In this document: one piece after another, positions 5,781 to 41,649 of the stretch
Layout: each line of letters opens with the position of its first letter
Numbering within the stretch: position 1 is the stretch's first letter
Assembly (NCBI RefSeq): GCF_014651895.1
Contig: NZ_BMXT01000002.1
Location: 62,001 to 126,000 of the forward strand
DNA: 64,000 nucleotides
Reading direction: 5' to 3'
DNA from: Rhodanobacter panaciterrae
GTDB taxonomy: Bacteria; Pseudomonadota; Gammaproteobacteria; Xanthomonadales; Rhodanobacteraceae
Translations under genes and position numbers: made by a program
Notes under the pieces: model-generated
What the model was told of the DNA's origin: nothing
The model's database searches: none
What the model saw: the letters and a program-made list of their open reading frames with translations, nothing else

Positions 5781-5804
5781 GGACGTATAGACGTCTATAC
5801 GGCT
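5781..5804. promoter_or_regulatory. Three tandem MetJ-like operator boxes
   Basis: Three abutting 8-mers are GGACGTAT (6/8), AGACGTCT (8/8) and ATACGGCT (6/8) against the MetJ consensus AGACGTCT. The central box lies in a perfect 18-bp palindrome, CGTATAGACGTCTATACG (5784-5801). The block ends one base upstream of the -35 of the TonB-receptor promoter. Known: MetJ binds tandem 8-bp boxes in enteric bacteria. Inferred: a MetJ-like regulator acts here; no metJ gene is in the window. Confidence 0.6.
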
Positions 5805-5805
5805 A

Positions 5806-5834
5806 TTGACGGAGACATGATGCGTCACTAATCT
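5806..5834 (+). promoter_or_regulatory. Sigma70-type promoter of TonB receptor
   Basis: TTGACG (5806-5811), a 17-nt spacer and TAATCT (5829-5834) form a near-consensus promoter. Transcription would begin near 5841, giving a leader of about 35 nt to the ATG at 5876. The MetJ-like boxes sit directly upstream. Confidence 0.65.
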
Positions 5835-5875: not shown

Positions 5876-8350
5876 ATGAGCAAGCGTTCCAATCCGATCG
5901 TACTGGCATGGCTGCCTGCCGCCGTGCTGCTGGCACTGGCCAGCAACGCCGCCGCGCAGGACGCCAGCGCGCCTCCGGCAGCCAAGGCCAAGGACCTGAG
6001 CGCCGTGATCGTCACCGGCACCCGCTCCGACAGCCGCACCGAAAGCAGCTCGCTGACGCCGATCGACGTGGTCTCGGCCAAGGTACTGCAGCAGACCGGA
6101 ACCAACGACCTGCCCACGGCACTCGCCCGCATCATCCCATCACTGAACTTCCCGCGCCCCGCCGCAGCCGATACGGCGGATACGCAGCGTCCGGCGCAGT
6201 TGCGCGGGCTCTCGCCGGACCAGGTGCTGGTACTGGTGAACGGCAAGCGCTGGCATCCCGGCGCGATCCTGCTGAACAACGGCGTGATCGGCCGCGGTTC
6301 GCAGTCGGTGGACCTCAATACCATCCCGCTGTCGGCGATCGATCACATCGAAGTGCTGCGTGACGGCGCGTCGGCACAGTACGGCTCCGACGCCATCGCC
6401 GGCGTGATCAACATCATCCTGAAGAAAGGGGCGAAGGGCGGCGACGTCGAGCTCAGCGGCGGCCAGTATTCCGCGGGCGATGGCCGGCAATGGCAGGGTT
6501 CGGCCAACTTCGGCATCCCGCTGAGCGACGACAAGGGCTGGCTGCGCTTCACCGTACAGAGCGGCAACGAGGATTACACCAATCGCGCCGGGCCAGACAA
6601 GCGCCCGGGCTTCCCCGGTCTTGGCGTGAACTTCCGCCAAGGCGACCCGGCGGTGCATGACACCAACCTGCTGCTCAACGCGCAGTACGACATCACGCCC
6701 GATGTGCAGTTCTACGCGTTTGGCCACTACGGTCGCCGCGAAAGCACCTCGCCGGCATTTTTCCGCTACGGCACCAATTCGCCGAAGCCGAACAATGCCC
6801 TGATCAGCCGGGTTTATCCCGACGGCTTCCTGCCGCTCGAGCACGCCGACTCCACCGACCAATCCTTCGTCGCGGGCCTGCGCGGCACGATCGACGGCTG
6901 GCGCTGGGATCTGAGCGGCAACTTTGGCCGCAATCGCGTTTCCTATCAAACACGGCACAGCCTCAATTACGCCTACTTGCACGATTTCGGCACCACGCCG
7001 ACTACGTTCCACGATGGCCTGCTGTCCGCAGCGCAGCAAAGCCTTGACCTCGACATCGCCAAGGACGTCCCGGTCAGCTGGCTGCCCAACCCGGTCACGG
7101 TAGCGTTCGGCGCGCAATACCTGCGCCAGACTTACGGTATCCAGGCCGGCTCGCTGCCGTCCTGGTACGTCGGCACATCCGGCGTCTCCGGCGGCGCGCA
7201 GGGTTTTGCCGGCTGGCAACCGTCCAACGCCATTGATGCCTCGCGTCAGGACGTGGCCGAATATCTCGACCTGGAAACCAACCTGACCGATAAACTGGGT
7301 GTCGCCGCGGCGGTGCGGCACGAGCACTACAACGATTTCGGCAACACCACCTCGGGCTCGCTGGCGGGCCGCTTCGACTTCACCGATACCTTCGCGCTGC
7401 GCGCCAGCGCTTCGACCGGTTTCCGGGCGCCATCGCTGGGCCAGGAATACTTCTCGCAGACGTCCTCGCTGTTCTTCGCCAACGGCAATTCGGCAGGCCT
7501 CCCTGCCGGCATCTACAACTCGGGTCTGGTGCCGGTTGGCAGCCAGATCGCACGATTGCTCGGCTCGGAGCCGCTGAAGCCGGAGAAGTCGAGGAACTAC
7601 ACCCTGGGCGCGGTATGGAACCCGACCGATGCACTGAACCTCAGCCTGGACGTCTACCAGATCAACATCCAGAACCGCATCGCACTCTCCGGCGCGATCT
7701 CGACCACCGCACCGGCCGTGGTGAATTATCTGACGGCCAATGGCATCGGCACCCTCAACTACAGCAGCATCGACTACTTCACCAACGCCGCCAGTACGCG
7801 CACGCGTGGCGTCGACGTCGTGGCCACCTATCTGGCCGACCTGGGCAGCTCAGGCACCCTCACCACCACACTGAGCGCCAACTACAACCAGAACACGGTC
7901 ACCAGCGTCAAACCCAACCCGGCGGTACTGACCAACCTGGGCGTCAATTTCGTCCGCCTGAGCCGCCAGGACATCAAGGGCTACCTGGCCAATTCGAGTC
8001 CGCGCAGCAAGCTCATCCTCAGCGAGCAGTACAACGTCGGGAACTGGGGAGTGACCGGCACGCTGACCCGCTACGGCCGTTACACCAGCTACGTCAGCAA
8101 TCTCGCCAGCTACAACGTGGCCACCGGCGTGGTCGATCAGACGTTCACACCCAAATGGATCCTCGATCTGGCGGTGAACTACAACCTGCATGACTGGACG
8201 TTCACCGTGGGTGCGGATGACGCGCTCAACATCTATCCGGACAAGAACATTCCCAACAACACCAACAACGGCACGCTGCCGTATTCCACGTTCTCCCCGT
8301 TCGGTTACAACGGCGCCTATGTCTACGGCAAGGTGATATATCGCTGGTAA
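5876..8350 (+). CDS. TonB-dependent outer-membrane receptor
   Basis: 824 aa. Signal peptide (SNPIVLAWLPAAVLLALASN, cut after AAAQ-like site), an Ala/Pro/Lys linker, then a plug domain beginning LSAVIVTGTRSDSRTES and containing QLRGLSPDQVLVLVNGKR, IEVLRDGASAQYGSDAIAG and VINIIL. The rest is a 22-strand beta barrel with TGFRAPSLGQ and the C-terminal aromatic end VYGKVIYRW. There is no extra N-terminal signalling domain, so it is a plain transporter rather than a FecA-type transducer. The substrate is unknown. The MetJ-like boxes upstream hint at a methionine- or SAM-linked control. GGAGAG precedes the ATG; an in-frame ATG at 5858 is less likely. Confidence 0.93.
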   Translation: MSKRSNPIVLAWLPAAVLLALASNAAAQDASAPPAAKAKDLSAVIVTGTRSDSRTESSSLTPIDVVSAKVLQQTGTNDLPTALARIIPSLNFPRPAAADTADTQRPAQLRGLSPDQVLVLVNGKRWHPGAILLNNGVIGRGSQSVDLNTIPLSAIDHIEVLRDGASAQYGSDAIAGVINIILKKGAKGGDVELSGGQYSAGDGRQWQGSANFGIPLSDDKGWLRFTVQSGNEDYTNRAGPDKRPGFPGLGVNFRQGDPAVHDTNLLLNAQYDITPDVQFYAFGHYGRRESTSPAFFRYGTNSPKPNNALISRVYPDGFLPLEHADSTDQSFVAGLRGTIDGWRWDLSGNFGRNRVSYQTRHSLNYAYLHDFGTTPTTFHDGLLSAAQQSLDLDIAKDVPVSWLPNPVTVAFGAQYLRQTYGIQAGSLPSWYVGTSGVSGGAQGFAGWQPSNAIDASRQDVAEYLDLETNLTDKLGVAAAVRHEHYNDFGNTTSGSLAGRFDFTDTFALRASASTGFRAPSLGQEYFSQTSSLFFANGNSAGLPAGIYNSGLVPVGSQIARLLGSEPLKPEKSRNYTLGAVWNPTDALNLSLDVYQINIQNRIALSGAISTTAPAVVNYLTANGIGTLNYSSIDYFTNAASTRTRGVDVVATYLADLGSSGTLTTTLSANYNQNTVTSVKPNPAVLTNLGVNFVRLSRQDIKGYLANSSPRSKLILSEQYNVGNWGVTGTLTRYGRYTSYVSNLASYNVATGVVDQTFTPKWILDLAVNYNLHDWTFTVGADDALNIYPDKNIPNNTNNGTLPYSTFSPFGYNGAYVYGKVIYRW

Positions 8351-41400: not shown

Positions 41401-41551
41401 ACAGCGCCATGCCGAACGCCATCGAGGCAGCGGCCAGACCCGCGCGCATGCGCTTGGCACTGCCTCCCTTGCCGTTGGCCTTGGCAAACTCGCCGGCCAC
41501 GACCATTGCGCCAAGCGACTTGTTCCAGATCTTGCTGTGGATCTTGTTCAT
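38462..41551 (-). CDS. YadA-like trimeric autotransporter adhesin
   Basis: 1029 aa. An ESPR-type extended signal (MNKIHSKIWNKSLGAMVVAG) precedes a hydrophobic core (GLAAASMAFGMALSTTSAMA). The head has many 14-15-residue YadA repeats of the form SxAxGxxSxAxG (for example TALGYNSFALGDNSTATG). Neck/HIM motifs recur: STDAVNGSQLYATNQAV, QATDAVNLGQL, NTDAVNMGQLNAL and DTDAANVGQVSSQV. A short coiled-coil stalk leads to the C-terminal YadA anchor (RSAISVGYAAPLGNRMHVSVG, ending GFGVDL). Type Vc secretion displays it on the outer membrane for adhesion or biofilm. GGGGA precedes the ATG at 41551. MetJ-like boxes lie 83 nt upstream. Confidence 0.92.
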   Translation of the reverse strand: MNKIHSKIWNKSLGAMVVAGEFAKANGKGGSAKRMRAGLAAASMAFGMALSTTSAMAADGPAQTTTPQVTTQTSSPAPNPTTPIYFSADGAADGSDNAQSLGTDSTAGGALSTAIGTGSTALGYNSFALGDNSTATGTLSTALGLESTALGYNSYASDDQTTAVGSNSKVYGIGSSALGYGAFTGIGANYATALGFGAGATNLNTIAVGANAQASGRSSVALGGVAVDASGNALAYDASGNPQAAAASGDLSTAIGASAVASGHGSIALGVTTQASGANAVAIGNSSTATGDYSMAMGPAALAQGAASIANGFGSVATGTEAVAIGYTAAASGSSAIAIGTAASVSGAQSIGIGYSSNAAGDQSIALGGYAMTQGGASTALGYNAITESGASVAVGFQAMTGSRDTVAVGTFANALGTYSIGIGYNAAANGQYSTIIGTQAMMAGYQDSLGNDLYYNNGTGIGWGVEVTQNGTALGSAAAAGKNDVAIGANAAIFNYSAWNTSATAPQNYMPSNSVAIGYSAQVKTPTGATSQVTNAMALGTSAIASASNAVALGANARATTANTVSVGNDGSSGGTKFTSSITNVTAGQLNATSTDAVNGSQLYATNQAVNTLTATVGNAVMYTDATHTGVTLGNGTTPVKVSNVADGTQATDAVNLGQLTSAITSGMSQVSAMAVNYDAADMSSVTLGGTNGTVIHNVAAGVANTDAVNMGQLNALSALESLDASQISLLNSAMLTVQGSITNLQNAGPSLPPTIAVDGGTGATVVTGTSGVAIGNGAAAGGSNGTAVGGGSFAAGPNDTALGGNAKVNADGSTAVGANTAIAATATNAVAVGESASVTASSGTAIGQGSSVTAANAVALGQGSVADVANTVSVGSATNQRQITNVAAGVNDTDAANVGQVSSQVNAALQTAKTYTDTSASQTLSAAKGYTDFALGNVQNQMNDRFQQVDKHINEDGAMSAAATQMAINAAGASGNGRIAAGVGEQSGRSAISVGYAAPLGNRMHVSVGATASGSQTSVGAGFGVDL

Positions 41552-41633: not shown

Positions 41634-41649
41634 AGACGTCTGGACGTCC
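41634..41649. promoter_or_regulatory. Two tandem MetJ-like boxes upstream of the adhesin
   Basis: AGACGTCT (8/8 to the MetJ consensus) is directly followed by GGACGTCC (6/8), giving GACGTC-N2-GACGTC. It is 83-98 nt upstream of the adhesin ATG on the minus strand. The same central box is found before the TonB receptor at 5789. No clear -35/-10 pair was found next to it. Confidence 0.5.

Follow-up and report, generated by a model that had tools for sequence, protein, structure and literature searches.

A putative MetJ operator at the promoter of a TonB-dependent receptor gene in Rhodanobacter panaciterrae and its relatives

The receptor gene and the sequence in front of it

The window analyzed here, a stretch of 64,000 nucleotides from Rhodanobacter panaciterrae, contains a gene for a TonB-dependent receptor that is a single-gene unit. 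Its reading frame is open from 5858, and the better start is the ATG at 5876, after GGAGAG. The gene, the elements upstream of it and a second site further along the window are the following:

5781..5788, + strand: putative MetJ box 1, GGACGTAT; the word is also found in the metJ promoter, and among receptor orthologues it is the least conserved of the 3 boxes
5789..5796, + strand: putative MetJ box 2, AGACGTCT; RGACGTCT/CC in nearly all orthologues with the operator
5797..5804, + strand: putative MetJ box 3, ATACGGCT; ATACGKCT or AAACGTCT in orthologues
5784..5801, no strand: perfect 18-bp palindrome CGTATAGACGTCTATACG, made up by the triple box
5806..5811, + strand: -35 element TTGACG, separated by 1 nt from the operator upstream of it; the 38 receptor promoters compared all have TTGAC, the word by which they were chosen
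5829..5834, + strand: -10 element TAATCT, a poor match by E. coli standards
5876..8350, + strand: TonB-dependent receptor, Pfam Plug and TonB_dep_Rec above cut-off; not BtuB
41634..41649, - strand: second tandem MetJ-like site GGACGTCC-AGACGTCT, some 80 nt before a gene of the trimeric-autotransporter type, whose start is probably near 41551

The three 8-mers stand head to tail from 5781 to 5804 and are followed by a single A (5805), TTGACG, 17 nt and TAATCT. The first-pass annotation had recognized the tandem triple with its perfect central box as the layout of a MetJ operator, ending one base before TTGACG-N17-TAATCT and preceding a TonB receptor. All of this was confirmed, the last point by the Pfam domains encoded downstream. 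Its description of the promoter as near-consensus holds for the -35 element, which agrees with the consensus at 5/6 positions, but not for the -10 element, with 3/6 by E. coli rules; a promoter scan of the window did not have the TAATCT -10 among the promoters listed, yet the orthologues show TARYCT at this place. An Rfam search of the window returned 0 RNA elements, and the receptor gene has no SAM-I riboswitch.

Within the window, the tandem pattern RGMYGTHTRGAYGTCY matches the operator site and the second site at 41634-41649 and is found in none of 100 dinucleotide shuffles, a test that is not decisive because the pattern was partly derived from the operator site itself. The lone word AGACGTCT, allowing one mismatch, does not exceed its chance frequency in the window. 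A palindrome search with 3 mismatches mostly gave matches inside genes, and the 8-mer tandem pattern was used instead. Weak sites (up to 3 mismatches to the tandem pattern) were discarded as evidence on their own, being near background (207 versus 154 for the reversed pattern). The decisive tests for an operator are those across genomes, namely conservation, a register control and the inspection of genomes that lack MetJ.

Occurrence of the boxes and of MetJ across genomes

We found 59 loci encoding relatives of the receptor, nearly all of them in Rhodanobacter, Dyella, Fulvimonas and Frateuria. Related species have kept the operator: it lies just before the promoter in 41 of the 58 testable loci, is degenerate in 3 and is missing from 14. 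In the 38 promoters aligned with TTGAC as anchor, most positions from -18 to -1 nt relative to this word carry 1.1-2 bits (lowest about 0.8), as compared to about 0.2 bits in the 40 columns further upstream. The receptor gene of Rhodanobacter is located between aspS-fmdB and clpB; several Dyella carry it at another genomic place, where the operator is still found with it. R. glycinis has the textbook form, AGACGTCT-AGACGTCT. Frateuria and some Dyella orthologues are without operator despite the presence of MetJ in the genome, suggesting that control of the receptor was lost or gained there. In 3 outgroup genomes reached via distant receptor relatives, neither MetJ nor the operator was found. 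We could also observe 3 Dyella species in which the receptor operator is degenerate and so is the autoregulatory site of metJ, as if the two had been lost together (L113, L118 and L119 with L083, L085 and L086).

The tandem pattern RGMYGTHTRGAYGTCY has 445 sites (231 + 214) in 26 Rhodanobacteraceae genomes, while its reversed form has 10. Inserting a 3-nt spacer between the boxes reduces the 445 sites to 5 in the same genomes, so the 8-bp register matters. The 18 MetJ-lacking genomes of the same order contain 1 site in all, and at least one tandem match is present in 9 of 10 MetJ-bearing genomes outside the Rhodanobacteraceae. Codon bias (Arg-Leu-Asp-Val) as a source of the tandem words was rejected on the grounds of the +3 control and of the MetJ-lacking genomes, which have almost none; the sampled GC content of the MetJ-lacking families is 53-68%, several being equal to the Rhodanobacteraceae.

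Not every tandem word marks a promoter. In 3 Dyella genomes, 9 of 18, 4 of 16 and 2 of 7 sites were called inside genes, at least one of these (L154) being a metX promoter mis-called by the gene finder. Tandem MetJ-like sites within genes are more frequent than expected from the spaced control (e.g. L139, L140, L142 and L146; genomes G022, G029 and G042). Outside the Rhodanobacteraceae, every tandem site found in a MetJ-bearing genome lies between genes or at the start of one.

The window genome encodes exactly one MetJ (Pfam E=2.1e-35). It scores 120.6-122.3 bits against PF01340 (cut-off 25) and 125.6 bits against NCBIfam NF003622 (cut-off 110), and matches the solved E. coli repressor structure 1cma at 2.5e-31. 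With 54 of 82 aligned residues identical to E. coli MetJ, the N-terminal part of about 80 residues shows 66% identity to the known repressor (PDB 1cma/1cmc), and the DNA-reading residues are invariant. An alignment of 29 MetJs from the family displays K23, T25, R40, R43, N53 and E59 without exception; we take K23 and T25 to be among the DNA-reading residues. R40 has been described as such a residue, and Glu39 and Arg42 as SAM contacts (PMC2775130). The latter two are kept in 16 of the 29 MetJs and replaced by L plus H or Y in 13. The window genome, like Rhodanobacter MetJ in general, has E39L and R42H, and the SAM response could therefore differ from that of E. coli MetJ.

The other end of the protein also differs from E. 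coli. In the window-genome MetJ, about 98 residues following residue 78 take the place of the E. coli C-terminus; they are 40% Lys and 38% Ala and weakly match histone H1-like models. Such a tail of about 90-110 residues is a feature of the Rhodanobacteraceae MetJs (L001:1489-2025 and 28 more sequences). MetJ was present as a long open frame in every Rhodanobacteraceae genome sampled, and as short frames (80-104 aa, one of 143) in two other families of the order; in the sample, it is absent from most of the remaining families.

MetJ had been recorded in six gammaproteobacterial groups but in none of four Xanthomonadales genomes, where SamR and MetR act on the methionine regulons (Leyn et al. 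2014, PMC4239095). These regulons likewise concern methionine and sulphur genes and belong to the same order; in contrast to that survey, every Rhodanobacteraceae genome sampled here has MetJ. In a Rhodanobacter strain exposed to nitrate, MetJ and MetQ protein levels rise and methionine enzymes go down, and MetJ was already named there as a putative repressor (PMC12146267). The open-access literature yielded no report that combines MetJ with "histone H1-like" or with Xanthomonadaceae.

Other genes with MetJ-type boxes

The words of the receptor operator recur upstream of metJ, metX and metQ. The sequence GGAYGTATRGAYGTCY has 3 exact matches in the genome: the metJ promoter, the operator in the window and a site upstream of a second TonB receptor. 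With a matrix trained on receptor promoters only, 26 of 29 genomes show a tandem site between -163 and -177 relative to metJ, the chance of such a score being about 1-2% per 500-bp stretch as judged from flanking DNA. Upstream of metX, whose product is a homoserine O-succinyltransferase (above family cut-off), we found AGATGTTT-AGACGTCT-A-TTGACA. A gene for a MetQ-family lipoprotein has GGCCGTAT-AGACGGCC upstream of it, and GGCCGTTTGGATGTCC is found where a methionine aminotransferase gene starts. Our view of the regulon comes from pattern searches and chosen genome stretches.

The metX operator is followed by a SAM-I riboswitch (E=1.9e-17 in the window genome), which was seen in 6 of 6 genomes, that is, the window genome and five further examined. 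SAM-I (S-box, RF00162) is an OFF switch. Here it is part of the metX leader and comes after the MetJ operator; what differs from the usual SAM-I arrangement is the MetJ-type promoter upstream, which gives one gene two SAM-sensing layers. Searching 19 genomes for a box followed by one purine and TTGAC, we fetched 30 loci, of which 15 were metX and 11 the receptor type of the window. The layout of box, one base and TTGAC is thus found almost only at metX and the receptor.

These boxes resemble the met boxes known from E. coli and other gammaproteobacteria (btuB, metJ, metB) in being gapless tandem 8-bp units with the consensus AGACGTCT, near promoters of methionine and uptake genes in a genome with MetJ. 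Unlike them, the Rhodanobacteraceae boxes end a single nucleotide short of TTGAC at two promoters that are unrelated, use the words GGACGTAT / ATACGKCT for boxes 1 and 3, and have a TonB receptor other than BtuB as target.

Additional sites were noted along the way. Two related trimeric-autotransporter-type genes are preceded by tandem MetJ-like sites (41634-41649 in the window and L018:1501-1516), and both adjoin a secreted-protease-type gene. MetJ-like sites are present at the second TonB receptor of the window genome and at its Fulvimonas soli counterpart, and Rhodanobacter sp. L36 carries an extra TonB receptor gene beside the orthologue, with a triple MetJ box of its own (L093:7670-7693). 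Two Dyella genomes and the window genome share sites at corresponding positions (L137, L162, L174), apparently between converging genes near a terminator-like hairpin and with no obvious promoter. Candidate sites also precede cysG/cysB, cysJ, ppc and the gene of an amino-acid transaminase (L159 and L160 in D. marensis, L163 and L134 in Dyella, L168 in Frateuria terrea) and point to a wider regulon of sulphur and aspartate-family genes.

Control of the receptor and its likely cargo

Taken as sequence, 5781-5804 is almost certainly a MetJ operator. With ample SAM, and hence ample methionine, SAM-loaded MetJ dimers would occupy the neighbouring 8-bp boxes in a cooperative manner and deny RNA polymerase access to the receptor promoter; as SAM declines, MetJ would come off and the receptor would be produced. 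A repressor and an OFF riboswitch acting on the biosynthetic gene metX make a coherent pair, and from this we infer that the receptor is repressed by MetJ too, which appears quite likely. We hold the reading as a whole, a SAM-dependent MetJ operator against the -35 element that would repress a receptor with a probably methionine-related cargo, with high confidence.

The receptor was suspected in the first-pass annotation of taking up a methionine- or cobalamin-related compound. The second option, a transporter of cobalamin or another corrinoid under MetJ control like E. coli btuB, is rather unlikely. It would fit the role of btuB as a core MetJ target in other gammaproteobacteria (PMC4239095), and the predicted structure, a barrel with a mean pLDDT of 76, resembles BtuB among others (TM-score by target 0.81-0.84). 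However, the structure is closest in fold to PirA, PfeA and Cir, with identities of about 16%, as for BtuB, and the receptor reaches 93 bits against the BtuB model TIGR01779, far under the cut-off of 599.7. The model is that of a generic siderophore/BtuB-type barrel and names no cargo. In addition, the same genome has a separate BtuB homologue (463 bits for a fragment of 469 aa) that is preceded by a cobalamin riboswitch, and this weakens ordinary cobalamin as cargo. Since the receptor is not the BtuB of this genome, the methionine-related option is favoured: judging from MetJ control alongside metX and metQ, the cargo is probably a nutrient that contains sulphur or is related to methionine, and not ordinary B12.

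An alternative that concerns the direction of control is that MetJ, alone or with a partner, activates the receptor, as the placement upstream of the -35 element had suggested. The geometry would allow it: the boxes end 1 nt before TTGAC at the receptor and at metX, and the centre of the last box falls near -40, about 40 nt upstream of the expected transcription start, a position used by class II activators. Nevertheless, we regard activation as improbable: metX shares the layout and in addition has a SAM-I riboswitch, which activation by SAM-MetJ would oppose. In the groups covered by the 2014 survey, MetJ is moreover given as a repressor (PMC4239095).

It is still less probable that another palindrome-site regulator, of the LacI, GntR, TetR or SamR type, had converged on a merely MetJ-like word. 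The perfect 18-bp palindrome within the site would suit such a protein, but the orthologous operators keep the 8-bp boxes and not the palindrome, as in R. glycinis. The same boxes occur at metJ and metX, they track the presence of MetJ and need the exact register, the tandem word being nearly absent from MetJ-lacking relatives, and the published SamR motif, ATC-10 nt-GAT, is different (PMC4239095). Chance resemblance in GC-rich intergenic DNA, for which one could cite the unremarkable frequency of the lone word in the window, is refuted by the conservation, with the register and co-occurrence tests also against it.

Returning to repression by MetJ, one extension of this reading is possible but tentative. 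MetJ with its H1-like tail may respond to SAM as a regulator and, in addition, coat DNA away from promoters, as the excess of tandem sites inside genes over chance would suggest, and the receptor may be a dedicated importer of methionine or a methionine-derived compound. We know of no TonB receptor class described for outer-membrane import of methionine or a derivative.

Compared to the literature that we found, what is new is the presence of MetJ throughout the Rhodanobacteraceae, its Lys/Ala-rich, H1-like tail and the non-BtuB TonB receptor as a conserved putative MetJ target. The MetJ regulon would thereby extend to a family of an order in which a large survey recorded none. E. coli MetJ now has a direct counterpart for comparison in a family-wide MetJ that carries an H1-like tail and an altered SAM pocket, and metX brings together MetJ boxes at the promoter and SAM-I control at the RNA level on one gene. 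The conserved TonB receptor, as a core MetJ target beside metX and metJ, would offer a testable route to a methionine-related outer-membrane transporter.
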